Below the pieces are notes generated by a model that saw nothing but the letters and a program-made list of their open reading frames with translations, made no database searches and was not told the origin of the DNA. Positions 449 through 11,286 of a stretch of 41,688 nucleotides of DNA are shown piece by piece. Numbering within the stretch: position 1 is the first letter of the stretch; each line of letters begins with the position of its first letter. The stretch lies in contig BAXO01000048.1 in NCBI GenBank assembly GCA_001310555.1, positions 1 through 41,688 of the forward strand, in the 5' to 3' direction. Source of the stretch: Bacillus sp. JCM 19058 (GTDB taxonomy: Bacteria > Bacillota > Bacilli > Bacillales_H > Bacillaceae_D). The position numbers were made by a program, and so were the translations under genes.

Positions 449-2546
449 ATTTCAATCCACGCACTCATATAGAGTGCGACTTTAGACAACTTAAATTCTT
501 CTACTCAATATAGTTTATTTCAATCCACGCACTCATATAGAGTGCGACAATTACAATAAATGTAATTAAATAAACCATTCCTAATTTCAATCCACGCACT
601 CATATAGAGTGCGACCAACGAGCGGATTTATGCAGGTTCGGAGTATCCAGAATTTCAATCCACGCACTCATATAGAGTGCGACAGAAATAGACCTAGACA
701 AAGCAGTAGAACTAATCATTTCAATCCACGCACTCATATAGAGTGCGACCTCCCCAATTCCCTACGCATTAAAGCGAGTTCCATATTTCAATCCACGCAC
801 TCATATAGAGTGCGACAATTACAACCGTTAAAACAATCATTGCAGTATCATTTCAATCCACGCACTCATATAGAGTGCGACCATGGCTTTTAGTAATTGT
901 TTGTAGGTTTTTATCTATTTCAATCCACGCACTCATATAGAGTGCGACGATGTGCTTAATGACAATTTATTTAGAGACTATGAATTTCAATCCACGCACT
1001 CATATAGAGTGCGACTCATTTGGCCTGTGTAGACCATATAAGCTGTTGTCATTTCAATCCACGCACTCATATAGAGTGCGACATATTATCGGTGAGGTCG
1101 GTTATGACCAGATATCGATTTCAATCCACGCACTCATATAGAGTGCGACGCTTGGTTGGTATCGACACCGCACAGGCGAAGCTATTTCAATCCACGCACT
1201 CATATAGAGTGCGACAGAAAGGGGTCAATAACATGGAAATGACGATCCATTTCAATCCACGCACTCATATAGAGTGCGACGGCATGTGTTCAAGTACCCA
1301 ATCCATCAACGATTATTTCAATCCACGCACTCATATAGAGTGCGACATGAGCGGAATTACAAAGTACAACGGTGGAGCTTGGATTTCAATCCACGCACTC
1401 ATATAGAGTGCGACTTGTTACTTAACATTTTTTTATCTAATAATGAAATAATTTCAATCCACGCACTCATATAGAGTGCGACAAACAAGCCTTTGAAAAA
1501 TCTGTCAAGCACGTTATATTTCAATCCACGCACTCATATAGAGTGCGACACGGCTTACGGAGGGGTGACAATTGCACTTGACGATTTCAATCCACGCACT
1601 CATATAGAGTGCGACAATTTATTAGCTTACGTTGCCAAAGACAGTAATGATTTCAATCCACGCACTCATATAGAGTGCGACCATTTTTGTATCTGGACTA
1701 CACCTATCCATTAAGATTTCAATCCACGCACTCATATAGAGTGCGACTTGCGCGTAGTCAAATTGTTCCTCGCTAACTATCTCTGATTTCAATCCACGCA
1801 CTCATATAGAGTGCGACTCTGTGCGAACCCTTCCATTACATTGAAATTACCATTTCAATCCACGCACTCATATAGAGTGCGACTATAGGCTATGCAAATG
1901 CGGATTGTCCTGATTAACAATTTCAATCCACGCACTCATATAGAGTGCGACGGAAGTGATTGACCGATACCAAGAGATACGTAAAATTTCAATCCACGCA
2001 CTCATATAGAGTGCGACAACGTGGAAAATACGAACAGCCGATGACCAACATATTTCAATCCACGCACTCATATAGAGTGCGACTGTTTCTTCGATAGCTG
2101 TCCACGTCTCAAATCGGAATTTCAATCCACGCACTCATATAGAGTGCGACCGCATGGCTCGAAGCAAACGAGAGGTTTGTAAAATTTCAATCCACGCACT
2201 CATATAGAGTGCGACCTGGAATGACATACCCACCGTCTTGACCTTCGTATTTCAATCCACGCACTCATATAGAGTGCGACGAAATGACTTACGGCAAGCA
2301 TCGTGATACGGTCGCATTTCAATCCACGCACTCATATAGAGTGCGACTATAGACGCTGCGTATTTATTAATCGATTTTTTATTTCAATCCACGCACTCAT
2401 ATAGAGTGCGACATTAAGCGAACGGGATTTATTCCTGTACAGTCTAATTTCAATCCACGCACTCATATAGAGTGCGACTAGAGTTAGAATTAGCCCTTGT
2501 ACAACGTAATTTTAATTTCAATCCACGCACTCATATAGAGTGCGAC
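449..2546 (-). CRISPR. Type I-C CRISPR array, 32 repeats and 31 spacers
   Basis: A 32-base repeat recurs 32 times, first copy 449-480, last copy 2515-2546. On the plus strand it reads ATTTCAATCCACGCACTC then ATATAGAGTGCGAC; the crRNA-sense strand is the complement, starting GTCGCACTCTATATGAGTGC and ending GTGGATTGAAAT, the type I-C form of B. halodurans. CACTC and GAGTG form the stem cut next to by Cas5c, leaving the 11-nt handle UGGAUUGAAAU. Spacers are 33 to 38 nt and all different by eye. Every repeat I checked is identical, including the trailer-end one at 449, so the array has not visibly decayed. The leader is at the 2547 side, so the newest spacers are at high coordinates and the array is transcribed right to left, the same direction as the cas genes. 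Confidence 0.98.
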
Positions 2547-2725: not shown

Positions 2726-3025
2726 TTAAAAGATCAAAGGCTCCTCTAGATCAACAGATTCTCTTGCTCCAACATGCTCGACCTTATTTTTGTAATTTTC
2801 CCCCAACCGATATAATCGAAGGCTGTCTTGTGATTGATCGATCGTATCAGTTAGTTCAATCTTCAATGAAGAATATTGAGTTGAATCTACTATACATTCG
2901 AAGACAGAGTTCTGAACTCTTTGTCCATAGTTTTGACAAATTTTCGCAACTTTTCTTAACCGCTTTTGCCCTACTGGGTTAGTTGTACTCACATCATAAG
3001 TTATTAAAACTAACAAAATATTCAC
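2726..3025 (-). CDS. cas2: CRISPR-associated endoribonuclease Cas2 (type I-C)
   Basis: Cas2 forms the spacer-integration complex with Cas1, bridging two Cas1 dimers. The protein is 99 residues, close to the usual 90-100. It starts with the typical first ferredoxin-fold strand LVLITYDVST, whose Asp is the conserved metal-site residue, and continues with RLRKVAKICQNYGQRVQNSV. The reading frame is intact. The start is GTG at 3023-3025, directly after the cas1 stop TAG (3026-3028), so the two are translationally coupled. It is the last gene before the leader and array, the normal position in I-C loci. Confidence 0.95.
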   Translation of the reverse strand: MNILLVLITYDVSTTNPVGQKRLRKVAKICQNYGQRVQNSVFECIVDSTQYSSLKIELTDTIDQSQDSLRLYRLGENYKNKVEHVGARESVDLEEPLIF

Positions 3026-4055
3026 CTACTTCCATAAAAATGGAGGGTATTCATCTAGATCGTTACGCAAAAATCGGGCTAACAACATTGCTTGAACATG
3101 TGGGACAAGTCCCCATGTGATTTTGTCACCTAGATATGGGTGTTTTATTTTTTCTTGTTTCTTATTTTGCCAGGCAGTTAAGAATTTTTTTTCTCGCCTC
3201 ATCAGACAGAATGACAGCACCGTTTTCTTTTTTTATAAAGTCACCCTTTTTCACTACTTTTTTATTTATTAATGATAATACGAATTTATCAGCAAATACA
3301 CCTCTTAGTTCTTCCATAACATCTAAAGCAAGAGAAGCCCTTCCTGGACGATCACGATGTAAAAATCCGACATAAGCATCAAGTCCTACCCCTTCTAAAG
3401 CTGATGCTGTATCATTAGCCAATAAAGTATAAGCAAAGGATAGTAAAGCATTTACATTATCTAATGGGGGCCTTCTCGACCGTCCTTTGAAATAAAAGTG
3501 CTCCTTTTGCTGTAAAATCATTTGATTAAAAACCTTATTGTAGCTAATAGCCGCTTGCCTTCTAATCCCCTAAGCCTCTCTAGCTCGTTACATTCCCTCA
3601 CATCTAAAAGAATAGAAGTTAAATGTTGTGAAATTTCTTTGAATGAGGAGACATCGATACGTAGAGGATAATCCCTTGTCATTCTTTCAATACACCACTT
3701 GTTATTATAGATTTTACCAACAATAAAATTACGGGCTATTTGGGCCGACTCTCCCTCATCGTCTGAGAGGCGGTATTGCTTTTTTTCTCAACACGACATT
3801 CCCTTTGCTTTTGCCAATTACCCTTGCAAGAAATCTGCCGCTCATTGTAAAAAAAAGCAATTGATATATTACGTTCAGCACAATACCCCATTAAAGCTGG
3901 ACTCGCACCAGTATAACCAAATGTCACAATAGACTCTAAGTTGTGCAACGGTAGTCTTCCTATCGCTTCTTGCTCTTTAAGTAGAACAACGTTACTTCCG
4001 TCTAACGACAGATATACGTCTGATTGATGAACAACGTATTCAAAAGCTTTTTCAT
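3026..4055 (-). CDS. cas1: CRISPR-associated integrase Cas1 (type I-C), frameshifted in this sequence
   Basis: Cas1 is the integrase that inserts new spacers at the leader-repeat junction. The span fits about 343 residues, the family length, but needs several one-base corrections (near 4015, 3830, 3790 in an A run, 3545 and 3200). Recognisable pieces in order are the start MKKLLNTLF, the segment [20 protein letters not shown], and the catalytic helix region [20 protein letters not shown] with the conserved His and acidic residues. The C-terminus is [14 protein letters not shown] chose ATG at 4053-4055 because it overlaps the cas4 stop as ATGA and gives the usual Cas1c N-terminus. The frame breaks fall in homopolymers and are probably sequence errors; if real, adaptation would be lost. 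Confidence 0.9.
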
Positions 4056-4712
4056 TCCGATATTTTCCCTTCAATGTAACGTTTCACCGATCGTTTATCC
4101 ATTAAATTTGGTAAACAAATGTTTTGAAGTGAGCAGTTTTTGCAATAAGCACCTGTTTTTACTTTAGGCGTATGCCTACGCTGATAATAATGATACATCT
4201 CTTTCACTACAGTGCGAACTTTTTTCTTTAACTCCTTTGTTAACGGAACCTCGACTCGATGTTGTATTTCATTATAAAACATATAGCCAACTTCTACTTC
4301 ACAGAACAGCATTTCTTCTAAACACAGTGCTTGAGTTGTTAGCTGTAAAAGATCTGAATCGTCCTTTTTTTGGTTTTCCACGTTTATATTCGATTGGATA
4401 AGGTAGATATTTCCCTTCTAAACCAATAACTTCGACCCCTCGTTCATCTTTAATAAATTCAACAACATCGCAAATTCCTGTTATTCTCAGTTCGTTTGAC
4501 TTTATGGGCATAGCGCGGACGATAAGTTTATCGCCGCGCTTTTCTCTAATCGTCGTATCATCAGCTTTTCGGTGAAGATGCTGCCCCTCTATTGTTCTCA
4601 CATTTTCTTCCCATTGCTGTTCTATATGAATCAAAGCCCATTGACGCTTGCAAAATTGAAAGTGTTGAATCCCAGATAACATTAAATAATTATCTTCTTC
4701 ATTAAACGCCAT
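4052..4712 (-). CDS. cas4: CRISPR-associated exonuclease Cas4 (type I-C), one frameshift
   Basis: Cas4 is an Fe-S, RecB-like nuclease that trims prespacers and selects those with the right PAM; in I-C it works with Cas1-Cas2. The N-terminal Cys is in GIQHFQFCKRQWALIH, the RecB motif is PIEYKRGKPKK, the motif-III-like helix is LLQLTTQALCLEEM, and the C-terminal Cys cluster is GAYCKNCSLQNICLP, giving the expected four-Cys cluster. One frameshift lies in an A-rich run near 4375. The start is taken as ATG 4710-4712, five bases behind a GAGGT, overlapping the end of cas7. The cas4 stop overlaps the cas1 start. Confidence 0.93.
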
Positions 4713-5562
4713 CAATGACCTCGACATTCAAACCATCTAACTCATCTATTTTGACCGTGTAGTCTCCAAATTCTTTTGGCCTGTCAACATTCTTTTCAAC
4801 TTTTAGTAAACGATGAACTTTAGCAGATGAATATTGACCAAGCTTGGACTGATGATTCCACCAACATACTTTATGAACTTCCATGCTCCTTCAGGGCGGG
4901 CAGAAGATGCGTCGTTTTCAAACAATGTAACGAGAGTTTCTTTAATTTTTTTTGCATCATCATTAGAAAAGCCAGTTTTTTTCTGCTAGTTGAGTGTTGA
5001 TGCTTCCATAAAAAACATACACTCCAAAGTCAACCCGATGTTTCATGCCCATCGTATCTGAACCCTTTTCCTTTCCTGATTCAGAATTGACGCTTTTCGT
5101 AATCTGTGTACTCGTAATACTAATTGGATCAACGCTCGTTGCTGTATGAATAGATACCGGTCCTCGGATACCGACTGAAACCCCTTTATTTCCCGAACCT
5201 TTAAAGGCGAAAACCTGTCCGAAACTTCTGACGTCGTACCACTCCTTGCAAGCAAGAACAGCAAATTGCTCACTTGATCCATTCTTTGTTTTTAATATTT
5301 TCTCTAACTCAGGATGAGCCTCAGCCCGTTCTTTTAAACTTTTAAACTGATCAATTTTTCGATCATTCGATTGAACAAACACTGATTCTTCCATATCTAA
5401 AAGCCGGTTTCTGATTTTCCTTTTAATTGCCACATCTGAAATTTCGCCATAACCATCATAATTTTGTCTTGGGCGATTTCCATTTAACGGGTCACCGTTT
5501 GGATTAGCTTTTGTTACTGAAATTACAACTGCAAAATCAATTTTGTGATCTAATGGATTCAT
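4702..5562 (-). CDS. cas7: Cascade backbone subunit Cas7 (Csd2, type I-C), frameshifted near the 3' end
   Basis: Cas7 polymerises along the crRNA spacer and forms the backbone of the I-C interference complex. The N-terminus shows ISVTKANPNGDPLNGNRPRQ, the first RRM strand and loop of Csd2. The centre has GIRGPVSIHTATSVDPI and the C-terminal half GSDTMGMKHRVDFGVYV, all typical of this family. About 285 residues are implied once breaks near 4965 and 4885 are bridged. The ATG at 5560-5562 overlaps the cas8c stop as ATGA, behind GGAGG. Cas7 is the subunit that makes every sixth crRNA position flip out, relevant to the regulatory RNA found upstream. Confidence 0.95.
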
Positions 5563-7489
5563 TCTTTACTTCCTCCTTCTTGATTTGTGCTTTCTTCACC
5601 TTTTATAATTTCCTTTTTTTGATAGAGTTCTTGGCGTTGACTTGAGAAACCTAATAAATATTTTCCAGTTAGCGGTTCGTTACAAAAATCATTAAAATGA
5701 AACCGTGACAAAACCTCATCGATCATTTTTGTATAATACGTTGCTCTTGCCCCTTGTCGAACTAGATAAGGCTGTATTGCCTCTTGAATCGTTTTCCACG
5801 TTCGTTCTGGGTGCATCGAGAATGCAGTCATATAACGGGTGGCATTTGTTGCACGAGACTCTTTGGAATCTAAAGCGTTCCTCTCAAATACATCAGCAAT
5901 CGCTAAAAGGCGCCCAAATAAGTAACTTCGATCCGAATTGTCTTTATCTAAAGCCACACCAGATCCCTCCTTTTTATTAACTAATGCACATGTAACACTA
6001 AGTGTTTTTTTCCCATTCCCATCTTTCCATTGCTGTTGGTTTTGACGCCCGTTGAATAGCATTTCTTAATATATCAGTTGGAACTTCTTGCCCATCAACA
6101 ATACAAGGGAATATTCGTTCGATTAATCCTTTAATTAGTTTTTCATCTGCTTTTGCTCCATAAGCCGCAAAAGCAATATCCTTTGGTGAAGGTGCTCCTA
6201 AGAATGGCAAAGTAGCTCCTTGTTTACTCTTTCGATAGCGATGCTGCCATACACAGGTAGAGTGCCATTGTTTTAACCTAGATAAATAAAGCTCTTTATT
6301 GAGATTACGATAATACAATACCGCTAAGCGCCCTGTTGTAGCAGAATCGATAATCAAGATATTGACATCATCATCCAAATCTAAATTACTACCATAACCG
6401 TCAATTGCCTTAGCCACCCTTTGAGAAAAATTTACATGTGTATAGGATTTCACAACTTTCTCTTCTTCGGGCTCAGCGGGAGCATCCCATTTCGAAAAAA
6501 ATATCGAAACTATCGTCAGTTGGCTCGGGAACTTCAATTTTCTTATTTGCCCAGACAAGAAAAACACGTTGAGCGACAATCTTTCCTTGGTAGTTAATTA
6601 ACCATTTCAAGGCATTATGAGCTTTTTGTGAAACATCGTAGCTAATATTTGCAGCCTCGTTACTTTTGTTAAATCGTCCTCTATATGTAAAACCTTTCTC
6701 ATCATTGGCTGAAATGAGCTTCGCTTTATCAGCGGCATTTCTAATTTTATTTGCATGTCTCTCAGTCCTCGGTAGGACAGTTCCTGTTACATAGCAATAG
6801 TCCTCATCGCTCAATAACCGCTCATAATACCGGATAAAAGAATCATAGAGCTCCGTATCCCTCCAAACTACTTTTAATATATCTTTGGGAGAATAGACAT
6901 TAAAACGAATGAATGCGCTTTCTTGACCTCCTGTGACTGCACTAAAAATTGGTGGTTTATCACCGTGTAGTAGCCTATATTTATCATCCCATTTAGAAAT
7001 AAGTTGTGCTTCTTCATCTAAAAATAAAACTCTTTCATTGACTAAATCCTTTATTAACTGACCTTTACTTAAATACTGATAAATACTTTTAATCTTCCAA
7101 TGCCCAAATGGCGACTCTGTCCATTCCTTTAGTTGATTAATATATGATGAAAATGTCTCTTTGTTGCTTTTAATATTTCCTCCGTAGGCAACAAAATCTC
7201 CAGCAACGTAGCTTAGTTTGTCATGAAGAGGGTAAGGAGCAACTTTTGAACCGGCACGGCTTGCGGAATCCTCGGTGCACGGGATTAATGTATTTGCGTC
7301 ACTTTTATCAATGACAATTGCCGAGTGGAACGCACCTTCCTCTGTAATATTTACTTCAATGTGAGCGTTTTGCGTCGTGTGAGATATGGGTATAAGGGTG
7401 TATTCTTTATCATAATGAGTTTTTTCAATAACACCGATTCGGCTAAGGTTTGATTGGTACGTCTGATATAAGTTGTACAACCAACTCAT
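5559..7489 (-). CDS. cas8c: Cascade large subunit Cas8c (Csd1), two frameshifts
   Basis: Cas8c recognises the TTC PAM and recruits Cas3 in the I-C effector. Bridging breaks near 6490 and 6030 gives about 640 residues, a usual Csd1 length. The N-terminus is [19 protein letters not shown], and further conserved stretches are [28 protein letters not shown] and [19 protein letters not shown]. In I-C loci the small subunit Cas11c is made from an internal start within cas8c, so the 3' part (about 5559-6060) probably also encodes Cas11c; I did not pin its start. The start ATG at 7487-7489 overlaps the cas5 stop and follows GGAGGTGAA. Confidence 0.95.
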
Positions 7490-8209
7490 TTATTCACCTC
7501 CTTATCCATTTCTTCAAGCAGCTCTTTAGCTGATTGAACATTTGATTGGTCAAAATACTTCGGTTCCATGTCAGCCACTTTCCGAACGAGTGTACACTGC
7601 TCTGGTCGAATGAACTCAATGACTCCATCCTTCATGACTGGATTCCAGAGCCGCACTTCCATCTCCTTACGCCCGATTTCATCTGGATAATTAAGGCCAT
7701 GAACCATTGTTCCCAAATGAATTTCGCCATCATAGCCATCATAAAACCCTTCACCTTCCCCGAAACGGCACGGCTCCACATACCCTTGGCATTCCCTAGC
7801 ACCTAAAAAAATGTCTCTTCGTCCTCCAGCTTTAAGCGAACGCTTCATAATACTGTGATGCTTCGCTTCAATCCGATCAAAAGCTAGATCGGGCCGATTC
7901 ATATTGAATTCAAAATGAGCAGCAACCTGATAACAAGGTTTTTTTTAAATACGTATAGTTTGCTAACGTGTTACCTCCACCATATTCTATTGGGCGAATT
8001 CCTTTTGACTCCATTTTAATCGGATTCATCACTCGAATTTTATCCACGACAATATAAATGGTCGGCTTCCAATAAATGGATTCTACTATTCCTTTTATAG
8101 ATTGATAGGTTGGGACACTATAGGTTAATTTTTCTCCACCTAGTTTCATAAGTGGATCAGTGAATAGTCCATATTCACCCCATAAACTGAACTCTATGGA
8201 ATTTTTCAA
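7486..8209 (-). CDS. cas5c: Cas5c (Cas5d), the pre-crRNA processing nuclease of type I-C, one frameshift
   Basis: In type I-C, Cas6 is absent and Cas5c cuts the repeat RNA, leaving the 11-nt 5' handle, then stays in Cascade. The span corresponds to about 240 residues, the family length. The N-terminus has [19 protein letters not shown] and the Tyr-containing SIYWKPTI; the catalytic neighbourhood downstream is [20 protein letters not shown], with the Lys-His pair expected at the active site. The frame breaks in a T run near 7940. The start is most likely TTG at 8207-8209, eight bases behind a perfect AAGGAGG (8218-8224); the GTG at 8216-8218 overlaps that Shine-Dalgarno. It is the first gene of the effector operon and lies directly behind the promoter targeted by the CreR-like RNA. 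Confidence 0.93.
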
Positions 8210-8251
8210 AATAAACACCTCCTTAATTCCTATTTTTTTTCCGATGATTCA

Positions 8252-8281
8252 ATCTTATCAAATCCTTTCATTAGGAGTCAA
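8252..8281 (-). promoter_or_regulatory. Promoter of the cas5-cas8c-cas7-cas4-cas1-cas2 operon
   Basis: On the minus strand TTGACT (8276-8281) and TAAGAT (8252-8257) are separated by 18 bases, a good sigma-A promoter. Transcription should start near 8245, about 20 bases before the cas5 Shine-Dalgarno. The -35 box lies inside the protospacer addressed by the CreR-like RNA at 8335-8420. No other good promoter was found inside the operon, whose genes mostly overlap by ATGA. Confidence 0.7.
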
Positions 8282-8304
8282 TGAAGAATAATACGTTATA
8301 TGAA
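8268..8304 (-). promoter_or_regulatory. Self-target site of the CreR-like RNA: TTC PAM plus protospacer over the cas promoter
   Basis: Read on the minus strand, TTC (8304-8302) is followed by ATATAACGTATTATTC (8301-8286). The pseudo-spacer starting at 8364 reads ATATAGCGTATTATTC. Fifteen of 16 positions agree and the exception is position 6. Beyond position 16 agreement drops to chance level. A full-length protospacer would run to about 8268 and cover the operon -35 box at 8276-8281. TTC on the non-target strand is the known type I-C PAM. Confidence 0.85.
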
Positions 8305-8319
8305 TTTGCTTTATCATTA

Positions 8320-8328
8320 TGATATAAT
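8320..8328 (+). promoter_or_regulatory. Extended -10 promoter of the CreR-like RNA
   Basis: TGATATAAT at 8320-8328 is a perfect extended -10 element. It predicts transcription start near 8335, just at the beginning of the degenerate repeat stem. There is no good -35 at the proper distance, which is common with extended -10 promoters. The -35 zone (about 8300-8305) coincides with the PAM of the self-target, so Cascade bound there could also affect this promoter. Confidence 0.65.
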
Positions 8329-8334
8329 AAGTTG

Positions 8335-8420
8335 TCACTTTTTAAGAAAGTGTGGATTGAAAAATATAGCGTATTATTCGTGTTAGAAGCCTATCTTTAT
8401 TTCAAAAGCTAGGCTTTTAA
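8335..8420 (+). ncRNA. CreR-like Cas-regulating RNA (degenerate I-C repeat plus pseudo-spacer)
   Basis: The sequence 8331-8363 is a degenerate I-C repeat: the stem is replaced by CACTTT/AAAGTG around the loop TTAAG, while the handle TGGATTGAAA (8353-8362) is intact and only its last base is changed. A pseudo-spacer starts at 8364 with ATATAGCGTATTATTC, matching the cas5 operon promoter next to a TTC PAM (see 8268-8304). There is no second repeat; instead the transcript runs into hairpins formed by GAAGCCTA (8386-8393) with TAGGCTTT (8410-8417), or AAAAGC with GCTTTT, followed by T-rich sequence. It is divergent from the cas5 operon and convergent with cas3. The layout fits known CreR RNAs of type I systems, which guide the effector to silence its own promoter because pairing is limited to the seed side. 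The role here is inferred; transcription is untested. Confidence 0.8.
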
Positions 8421-8447
8421 CTTTTGGAGGCTAATATAAGAGTGACC

Positions 8448-10857
8448 TCACCTTCCATCATTTGATAATTCTAAGCCATACTCCTCGCTATATGCTCCTT
8501 CTTTTAAAACGAGAACGCTTCCATCTAAATACGAAACAAGCCCATCGTTTTTTGTTAGCTGGTCTATTTCAAATTGTGATAGATTAACTGAGTACTGCTG
8601 GGCTTTACGAAGTAAAGCAGTTAAGTCCTCAATCGATTGTTCGCTATTTAATGTAGCGATCATCTTTTCGCCCTCTCCATAAGGTACAAGGACTGATGTC
8701 GTTAAATCGGCAATCACACGAAAATGCTCAGCAGCTGTGCGATAGCTGTTTAAAATAAATAATTTAATTTGTTCATTATCATTGGTTGCCCTATAGGATT
8801 CCAAATATTGGTTTTTCCTTCTTGAAACGGTTAACAGCTCTGTCATCTCAATTTTAAGTTTTGGAATGAAGTAATTTAGATCAGATTCTAGATCAGTATA
8901 AAATTCCTTAAAATATCGCTCCATTGCTTGTCTTGATAACAAGTGTCCACCATAAGAGCTTTCGTCATGATTCATATTTTTCAAAATACGCTTAGTTACT
9001 TTTTTTCCGTGACGAATTTCTTTTAAGAGACGCAAATTTTCTTCTGCATGCTCAATCAAGTAAACTTTCTGGATCCCCATTCTACCGTGACGGTTACAGC
9101 GCCCTGCTGCCTGAGCAATCGAATCCAGCCCTGCTAATGAACGTATAACCGATTCAAAGCTAATATCTACTCCTGCCTCAATTAATTGAGTGCTGACGCA
9201 TATAATTCTTTCTTTATTTTCCAGCTTAACTTTTATCTCCTTTAAAATCGCCTTTCTATGAGCTGCACACATCGATGTGCTTAAATGATAAAGCTCTTCA
9301 TTTCCTTCTCTATCCTTTAATTTTTCGTATAGTCTTTTACGACAGCTTTCGTATTTAAAATTACTAAAAGGCTTCGCTTTTCCTGCATTTGCTCTTCGAT
9401 AAAATCAACTAATTTTTTATTATTAAATGTTTGGTCTGTAGCAAGATCAGTTAATTCGACCCGCTTAAATGAGTGAATGACCTGATCAATGTTTTTTATT
9501 ATTTCAGCATCCTTTTCAATCGAAAGCTCATGCTTTACAAAATCAAGGGCAGGCTGAGTAGCTGTACATAGTACAATGCTTGCTTTTCCATAATCCTTTA
9601 AAAAAATTCACTGCATCATTAAAAAGTGAGACACAGGAAACTGGAACCTTTTGTACTTCATCAAAAATAATGACCGACTCACTCAAATGATGGAGTCTAC
9701 GAATGTTTCTACCCCCTTTTGCATAAAACACATTTAAAAATTGAACCATCGTAGTAAATATAATCGGTGCATCCCAATTATCCTTTGCAAGCTTTAGCCT
9801 TTGTCTGTCATTTACAATGCCATCTTCCTTTTCATCATTGTCATCGTTATCCTCAATGACATTTGAATGATGCTCTAATAGATGTTCATCTGCCTTTAAA
9901 ATCTTCCGTACCTCGGTAGCGTTTTGTTCAATAATCGTTGTGTAGGGCACAACATATATGATGCGCTTTTTGTCGTGAATGTTGCATGCTTAAGGCATAT
10001 CTTAAGCTTGCCAGTGTTTTTCCACCACCTGTAGGGATCGACAGCATATAAATCCCCGATGGACGCTGAGCAAATGCATCACACTGCTCTGACATATCAC
10101 TTCGTAAACGATTAATTAGTGAGTCAGCTTCATCATCTTGTTTAAACGAATTGATTTTATCTATAAGCCTTTTATAATATGTATCGAATAGTTTTTGGCT
10201 ATCATATGTCTTCTCATATTCTTTGTTTTCTTCAAACAAGCGCGTGTTCGTTCGATCACTATCAATTAATGCGCTAAATATAAATTTAGTTAAAAACATG
10301 AGTGTCCTTTCTCGCTCTAAAGGTCTTTTCGCCAAAAATCCTTCCAACTCAACGGATGCCTGATGAACGTATTGATGAAAATCTGACTGGTTCATAACAT
10401 GCTCAAAAAATAATTCTTTCGCTGGTTCAAACTCGCAAAAAAACTTTATCACGGACACGTCGTAAATAAGGTGATTCTAATTCTGGAGTTAAAAAAAATC
10501 ATGAAGATAGGAGTGGTGGGATAAAATTGCATTTCCAACAATTTCAGCGACAATGGCAGTTCTTTCGTTGAGGTTCTTCTTATGGAAGAGCTCATAGAGA
10601 AGCTTTCCTCCTGCAGTAGAATGATCGACACTTCCTCTTTTAGGAGGGGAATCGGGGTTAGTAATGGCTTCTAGTAAATAGTCTTGGAACTCTTTCGTAT
10701 ACTTCCCTAGATCATGAAGTATACCAGCTAATCCAGTTAGGTGCTTTACACCTATTTTTCTCCAAACGATTCGGCTAATTTTTTTCACTTCTAATAAATG
10801 CTGCTTTACCGTTTGAATTTTTTTATCACTTTTACGAACATGGGCAATAAAATTCAT
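8448..10857 (-). CDS. cas3: CRISPR-associated helicase-nuclease Cas3 (HD plus DExH, type I-C), several frameshifts
   Basis: Cas3 is recruited to DNA-bound Cascade and unwinds and degrades the target. The span equals about 803 residues, normal for I-C. The N-terminal HD nuclease domain has LAGILHDLGKYTKEF (His48-Asp49) and ILSHHSY. The helicase part has SIPTGGGKT (Walker A, coded near 10018-10045), IIFDEVQKVP (a DEVQ Walker B near 9655), and the C-terminal motif STQLIEAGVDISFE with AQAAGRCNRHGR (motif VI). Frame breaks occur near 10490, 9955, 9600, 9390 and 9300, mostly in A/T runs. I start at ATG 10855-10857, behind GGGAGAGG. It is separated from cas5 by 238 bases that hold the CreR-like gene, so it is probably transcribed from its own promoter. 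Confidence 0.94.
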
Positions 10858-10944
10858 ATAAAGCCTCTCCCTTTTTAGAGAAAAAAATAGTGAAATTCTA
10901 TTAAAAGAGTACATGACATTCAATCATTTCAAATAACTAGTTCT

Positions 10945-10965
10945 TTTATAATGCACATTATAACA
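10945..10965 (-). promoter_or_regulatory. Candidate cas3 promoter
   Basis: On the minus strand an extended -10, TGTTATAAT, lies with its TATAAT at 10957-10962. Transcription would begin near 10950, about 90 bases before the cas3 ATG. No good -35 is present. I found no seed-length match of the CreR-like pseudo-spacer to this promoter. Confidence 0.5.
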
Positions 10966-11163
10966 TAATATCAACAAATTAGGTTATAAGACTCATTTCA
11001 TTTGCTTCGATATTAAACATAGAAATTGAAATGTTTTGATAAAGTCTTTTGTCAAAGAAAGTAAAATATAAAAGAAATTATACATTTAAAAAAATTTCCA
11101 ATAATGCAAAAAAAGGAACGGTGTATTAAACCATAAAAAAACTTGTCCAACTTAGTGTCTACG

Positions 11164-11193
11164 ATTCGTCCATGCACATATATAGAGTGTATT
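11164..11193 (-). repeat. Isolated degenerate type I-C repeat upstream of cas3
   Basis: On the minus strand this reads CACTCTATAT followed by ATGTGCATGGACGAATC, matching the array repeat at most positions: the 10-base block CACTCTATAT is identical, and GTGC.TGGA is kept. The handle is shortened by one base and altered. A TATACT (11195-11200) sits directly upstream, and a run of seven T (11141-11135) follows about 22 bases after the repeat. It has the same orientation as the array. It is either the remnant of an older array end or a second, decayed CreR-like gene; the following bases GTAGACACTAAG have no convincing match near the cas3 promoter. The rest of the 10858-11286 gap is AT-rich and shows no gene. 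Confidence 0.6.
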
Positions 11194-11286
11194 TAGTATA
11201 GCCCTTCATCAAAATTGTTTTTTTTCTGTATAGTTCTATGAAAACCTGTTTCGACATTGAGCAAATTGCTCGTTTTTCTATGCACT

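Follow-up and report, generated by a model that had tools for sequence, protein, structure and literature searches.

A candidate creR gene in a Bacillus type I-C CRISPR-Cas locus carries a guide matching the promoter of its own cas5 operon

The 41,688-nucleotide stretch of Bacillus sp. JCM 19058 DNA analysed here (the window) very probably encodes, to judge from its sequence, a defence system that turns itself down by means of a guide to its own cas promoter. Reading the gap between cas3 and cas5 (8210-8447) revealed a plus-strand element antiparallel to the cas genes, and we are confident in proposing it as the creR gene of a type I-C system, through which Cascade would repress the cas5-cas8-cas7 operon. 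The locus lies on the minus strand in the order cas3, cas5c, cas8c, cas7c, cas4, cas1, cas2 and then the array. The features discussed below are as follows.

449-2546, minus strand: CRISPR array, 32 repeats found by repeat search
4705-5562, minus strand: cas7c (csd2), a single tblastn match that contains an out-of-frame stretch and internal stops
5613-7489, minus strand: cas8c (csd1), read in three pieces, with frame breaks
7486-8209, minus strand: cas5c, start TTG at 8209, one frame break near 7913-7932 (tblastn)
8252-8257, minus strand: predicted -10 box of the cas5 promoter, TAAGAT (promoter scoring)
8276-8281, minus strand: predicted -35 box of the cas5 promoter, TTGACT, at protospacer positions 21-26 (promoter scoring)
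8286-8301, minus strand: guide target, 15 of 16 bases matching, mismatch at position 6 only
8302-8304, minus strand: TTC, the I-C PAM of the self-target (pattern search; PAM in relatives)
8320-8328, plus strand: extended -10 of the creR gene, TGaTATAAT (sequence; promoter scoring)
8331-8363, plus strand: degenerate I-C repeat, whole including the handle, single copy
8331-8352, plus strand: hairpin part of that repeat, stem CACTTTT/GAAAGTG (fold; both-side stem changes in relatives)
8353-8363, plus strand: crRNA-type 5' handle TGGATTGAAAA, equal to the array repeat handle save the last base
8364-8379, plus strand: guide (pseudo-spacer), 16 nt (match to the cas5 promoter region; relatives)
8383-8420, plus strand: terminator-like hairpin of creR, with a CCTATC/GATAGG-type stem common in relatives (fold, alignment, pair counts)
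8448-10923, minus strand: cas3, read in four pieces (tblastn-type matches; frame breaks)

A preliminary description made from the sequence had placed a degenerate I-C repeat in this gap, on the strand opposite to the cas genes, with a restored stem and an intact crRNA handle. The repeat reads as described, and both stem and handle are borne out by the fold and by comparison with the array repeat. The handle is TGGATTGAAAA in creR and TGGATTGAAAT in the array, so the element carries the crRNA handle of its cognate repeat, as CreR RNAs do. Outside the array, likeness to the array repeat occurs at a single place in the 41,688 bases, at 8332 on the plus strand (at most 12 mismatches in 32, ungapped). 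The extended -10 promoter attributed to the RNA is likewise present, and the form TGnTATAAT stands in the best-scoring creR promoter of 20 of 35 loci, the window included, drawn from the best 80 of 577 cas5 loci. The predicted RNA folds at -20.7 kcal/mol (z -3.1; one of 200 shuffles folds as well) into the repeat stem and a strong 3' hairpin, so that it has one repeat and ends in a terminator-like hairpin with no second repeat. This terminator-like end had also been claimed, and the fold and the relatives' hairpin agree with it; a simple terminator scan listed no terminator for the hairpin, and the call therefore rests on folding and relatives. No match reaching the cut-off of any Rfam family was found for 8200-8480.

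The guide was said to match the minus strand at 8301-8286 behind a TTC in 15 of 16 bases, with position 6 as the sole mismatch, and it does. With position 6 left free, TTC plus guide has one exact match in the window; the other match (three mismatches) is the guide itself, and dinucleotide shuffles of the window give 0.10 matches on average for the pattern with up to three mismatches. The element thus has the PAM-flanked partial match to its own cas operon promoter that characterizes CreR. That promoter is predicted to read TTGACT-18 nt-TAAGAT on the minus strand. The protospacer had been described as covering the -35 box (8276-8281), and the box does fall at protospacer positions 21-26; the paired stretch, however, stops four bases short of it, abutting the box without overlap. 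As the -35 region of creR overlaps the TTC, creR may also repress its own promoter in the window. We rejected this as a general feature because the distance between target and creR is about 40 nt greater in six Paenibacillus loci (L008, L016, L025, L037, L038 and L048).

Relatives were sought among the best 80 of 577 confirmed I-C cas5 stretches, found by a scan with the Cas5 C-terminal piece and numbered here with an L, which together with the window make 81 sources. A handle-first scan, asking for a handle and a guide with a TTC-flanked local target, matched 36 of the 81, or 35 (34 loci and the window) after L051 was rejected as an array artefact. Its controls gave 1 of 81 with reversed guides, 2 of 81 with complemented guides and 0-1 of 81 with shuffled guides in ten runs. 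Wider scans added L063 and L045, so that an element with a matching target occurs in 36 of these best 80 loci and in the window; the wider-scan matches in L015 and L017 were set aside as, by eye, an array repeat and a palindrome. The scan that gave L045 returned 0, 0 and 1 with shuffled guides. In this locus (1505-1810) the creR-like element lies upstream of cas3 on the cas strand, and its target is mismatched only at position 6 of 16. The remaining 44 of the 80 have no matching element. Among the 81 sources, a cas3-cas5 gap of less than 130 nt was seen in 33 of the 46 listed without the element versus 1 of the 35 with it, and a handle-free search near cas5 and cas3 found no element in the 46 loci outside the first 35.

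Of the 35 elements, 31 went into a covariance model, which contains no target although each of its rows had been picked because it had one. At E <1e-3 it matched 38 of the 81 sources (the best 80 of 577 and the window), and in all 37 model-matched loci of the cas5 set the element lies between cas3 and cas5. In a fresh set of 398 genomes from the class of the L003 genome (a Bacillus, hence Bacilli), all 15 model matches fell in cas3-cas5 gaps. Three repeated known loci (L003, L066 and L071) and were dropped, leaving 12 new elements, two of which (L085 and L086) share an identical guide and target. For 10 of these 12 there is a target behind TTC that is mismatched, if at all, at positions 6, 12 or 16. 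We then define the core as the 13 of guide positions 1-16 that exclude 6, 12 and 16. When 50 elements (the 31 model rows, 7 other first-set loci and the 12 new ones) were searched with no PAM condition, the best guide match had at most one core mismatch in 46, and TTC stood directly before 45 of those 46 matches although the search did not require it. Retention of the repeat-like part with loss of the match, raised earlier as grounds for doubt, is the exception: most loci keep both, with guide and promoter changing together. The exceptions among the 50 are L068 and L071, which retain repeat and terminator with no local target; L069 and L093, where the guide-target match is only partial; and L091, whose TTC-flanked match is only partial, with two core mismatches. 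Without the PAM condition, the best match for L091 most probably is the reverse complement of the guide itself.

Guides fit their own targets better than those of other loci. Own pairs matched at 12.94 of the 13 core positions versus 9.71 for guides set against other loci's targets; over the 22 distinct targets the values are 12.91 and 8.60, and none of 50,000 permutations was as high. The guides are for the most part AT-rich variations on a single sequence. These match counts are conditioned by selection, because the 35 pairs and those of the tree described below were admitted only with one core mismatch or none (33 of the 35 have none), and 31 of the 50 elements searched without a PAM are model rows; the controls, the fresh set and positions 6 and 12 are free of such conditioning. 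Mismatches within positions 1-16 of the 35 pairs number 31 at position 6, 26 at 12, 9 at 16 and 2 elsewhere, while positions 17-36 are near background with a slight excess at 17. Both features pointed out for the window beforehand, a match that stops after position 16 and a position 6 that is ignored, are thus seen across the pair set, and position 12 behaves likewise. A Cas5 tree was drawn for 46 members (the 35, L063 and 10 of the new ones), with 21 of its 42 inner branches left open. Across it, guide and target agree in all 46 pairs at eleven positions (2-4, 7-11 and 13-15), which together require 59 or more changes to the same letter on both sides. Agreement is seen in 45 of the 46 at position 5, in 4 at position 6 and in 12 at position 12. 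The match is therefore conserved and covarying across homologous loci, as in CreR, and the co-variation of pseudo-spacer and promoter that was to be looked for in related I-C loci is found at the paired positions.

In the R-loop formed by Cascade, every sixth base is flipped out. Judged from the sequences, the pairing pattern is what such an R-loop should leave if the guide extends to only about 16 nt. Matches at positions 6 and 12 are no more frequent than shuffled columns give (in the set of 46 with L045 replacing L086), so active avoidance of a match there is unsupported, the matches being at the chance level of column composition. The guide has U or G at position 6 in 41 of 46 and at position 12 in 39 of 46, though unpaired with the target. 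The RNA structure has changed in step as well: 8 pairs (29 cells) of the repeat stem and terminator change on both sides, against a mean of 4.3 pairs and 12.5 cells in shuffles and 2-6 pairs and 5-13 cells in slid versions.

The layout at the promoter bears on two other explanations. The best-scoring cas-side -35 lies at protospacer positions 15-29 in 30 of 34 loci drawn from the best 80 of 577, and the two matched copies lie on opposite strands, about 60-130 nt apart, AT-rich and beside divergent promoters. Such an arrangement would also suit an inverted-repeat operator for a protein repressor, with the repeat-like hairpin a coincidence. We consider this very improbable, as a crRNA handle precedes one copy (the search was built that way), TTC precedes the other in 45 of 46 cases with no such requirement, and free variation at just positions 6 and 12 fits Cascade pairing. 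In addition, the target of L076, L090 and L093 lies on the opposite strand and, by eye, downstream of the promoter close to the ribosome-binding site of the next gene; as read from these sequences, the aim has moved but an aim is retained. Because creR is antisense to any cas3 read-through transcript, it might instead act as an antisense RNA on such a transcript or on the cas5 mRNA. This is extremely improbable: in the usual layout the matched site lies upstream of the predicted cas5 -35 and hence outside the cas5 mRNA, and the TTC and the pattern at positions 6 and 12 would be left unexplained.

The element is mainly a feature of Bacilli, because in a phylum sample the model matched 3 of 398 genomes versus 110 of 398 for Cas5c, and the loci examined in extension of that sample yielded little more. 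One of the three matches is the genome of L003 itself, and the other two genomes have no matching target. The 40 extension loci (2 model matches, 30 Cas5c loci of the 110 matching genomes and 8 plasmid loci) gave L101, a copy of L003, and two weak cases, L106 and L132, with 0 matches for shuffled guides in four runs. On these results we rejected the idea that creR is general to all I-C systems. L106 (handle at 2805, minus strand) has a solitary repeat and a same-strand target with mismatches at positions 6, 10 and 12, and may be a creR of a different I-C lineage within the phylum sample.

The state of the cas genes in the window also calls for comment. Frame breaks (2729-10923) occur in six of the seven (cas3, cas5, cas8, cas7, cas4 and cas1), and in cas2 alone the frame stays open from the first matched base onwards. 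Elsewhere in the window, many ORFs look short by eye, which is why we regard the breaks as likely assembly indels, with decay as the alternative. Upstream of cas3, at about 11165-11200, inspection by eye showed a degenerate CRISPR repeat whose handle is damaged, probably left over from a second array. Both the six broken genes and this damaged repeat would fit a fossil, a once-active creR in a decaying cas locus that no longer functions in this organism. We think this unlikely, since the guide is intact, as are PAM, handle, stem and promoter, the matched cas gene pieces keep 58-89% identity to a relative, and the short-looking ORFs elsewhere in the window fit assembly indels. The Cas5 piece is nearest by identity to that of L088 (79% over 92 columns, the highest among the Cas5 tree set of 46), the best match to 7486-10986 in a plasmid comparison has 68% identity over 38%, and viral contigs held no relative of the Cas5 piece.

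From the anatomy, PAM, conservation, guide-target covariation and geometry of creR, we infer its transcription, processing, loading into Cascade and repression. A short plus-strand RNA would start at about 8335, with the degenerate repeat capping its 5' side and presumably still cut by Cas5c, and would end in an intrinsic terminator where a second repeat would otherwise stand. After processing, the RNA, with an 11-nt handle and a 16-nt effective guide, would load Cascade (Cas5c-Cas8c-Cas7), which would open the DNA at TTC and the 16 nt that lie shortly before the cas5 operon's -35 box. Bound there, Cascade would keep RNA polymerase off the promoter, while pairing that ends at position 16 should be too short to call in Cas3. 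Repression would accordingly track free Cascade, and would be lifted once array crRNAs or anti-CRISPRs occupy the complex. Parts of this scheme have precedents, as I-C Cascade without Cas3 is reported to repress promoters at a TTC-flanked target over the promoter, for which a repeat-spacer array without the second repeat suffices (PMC10865793), and truncated I-B crRNAs are reported to repress without cleavage (PMC10551041).

Autorepression by CreR has been reported for types I-B, I-E and V-A (PMC13131331). CreR is described as a crRNA-like RNA partially complementary to the cognate cas promoter (PMC13131331; PMC12737573 section 3.2), relieved, according to the review, through crRNA competition or anti-CRISPRs (PMC12737573 section 3.2), and is said to be encoded by a mini-CRISPR (PMC12948488). 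The window element resembles these in being a predicted crRNA-like RNA with a partial match to the cognate cas promoter. It differs in belonging to type I-C, a subtype unnamed in the available text of the I-B, I-E and V-A reports, in consisting of a single repeat with a terminator hairpin replacing the second repeat, and in lying antisense between cas3 and cas5, mainly in Bacilli. A CreR of type I-C was absent from the titles and abstract openings of the literature searched; the primary 2023 CreR survey may hold an entry. Racr RNAs, phage-encoded solitary repeat units (PMC10651486), are likewise solitary repeat mimics, but the window element sits inside a cas locus, whose Cas5 has no relative in the viral contigs, and has a self-target guide. 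CRISPRCas_18 (PMC9067536), a candidate structured RNA lying some 300 b upstream of I-C cas3, is likewise an RNA predicted between genes of I-C loci and is set apart by its description: it lies on the other side of cas3 and is palindromic, with no guide in the description available.

Closer in mechanism is CreA of the CreTA modules, known from I-B in haloarchaea and I-F in Acinetobacter (PMC12737573; PMC10097628; PMC10989794), where a guide RNA with a degenerate repeat directs Cascade to a promoter that it matches in part. The window element could accordingly be an antitoxin RNA of a CreTA or CrePA module and no cas regulator, a reading to which the extra ORF between the targeted promoter and cas5 in some relatives (L063, L050, L052 and L069) lends something. 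We judge it quite improbable, because in the window the target is cas5 itself, no toxin gene is seen under the targeted promoter, and the approximately 42 nt between the predicted -10 box and the cas5 start leave no room for another ORF, although this argument covers ORFs and not a small toxic RNA.

In relatives the same place is sometimes occupied. L063 has a 140-aa ORF between the targeted promoter and cas5 (3805-4352) that is Nuc_deoxyrib_tr-like (below the Pfam cut-off) and matches the PADLOC TIR effector model. In L050 (2380-4447) the targeted promoter precedes a DUF4062 ORF (Pfam match over the cut-off), a second ORF has a weak DUF7830 match, and PADLOC gave no match for either. The ORFs of these two loci are possible CrePA-like guard modules in type I-C. 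Right behind the targeted promoter, L076 (4291-4488) has an HTH_Tnp_1 protein (over the Pfam cut-off) and L088 (1719-2027) a 102-aa ORF that looks OrfA-like by eye, neither of these OrfA-like HTH ORFs having a visible partner. L060 has a 142-aa ORF before cas5 with no Pfam or PADLOC match. Small peptide ORFs lie between the creR-like element and cas5 in L052 (4543-4617), L069 (4380-4499), L068 (4426-4593) and L074 (4358-4456); those of L052 and L069 (24 and 39 aa) have no Pfam match and look toxin-like by eye. The position of the ORFs behind the targeted promoter suggests a guarded-effector role in those lineages. We offer, as a tentative idea that may well prove wrong, that the I-C creR family is both thermostat and guard, that the promoter is a cargo slot, and that the family records the bases read by Cascade (2-5, 7-11 and 13-15, not 6 or 12). 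The slot would hold cas5 alone in the window, and in relatives TIR-like or DUF4062 ORFs, insertion sequence OrfA-like HTH ORFs or toxin-like peptides before cas5. If this were true, loss or inhibition of Cascade would release both the cas genes and the effector.

Backed by this comparison of dozens of loci across many genera of Bacilli, the proposed creR would extend RNA-guided self-repression of cas genes to type I-C. Its guide-target pairs may serve as an evolutionary record of the way in which I-C Cascade reads DNA, and also of the match length that should bind without attack. Excising the cas3-cas5 gap from an I-C operon may thus remove a regulator, and creR would offer a natural design for a short-guide repressor.
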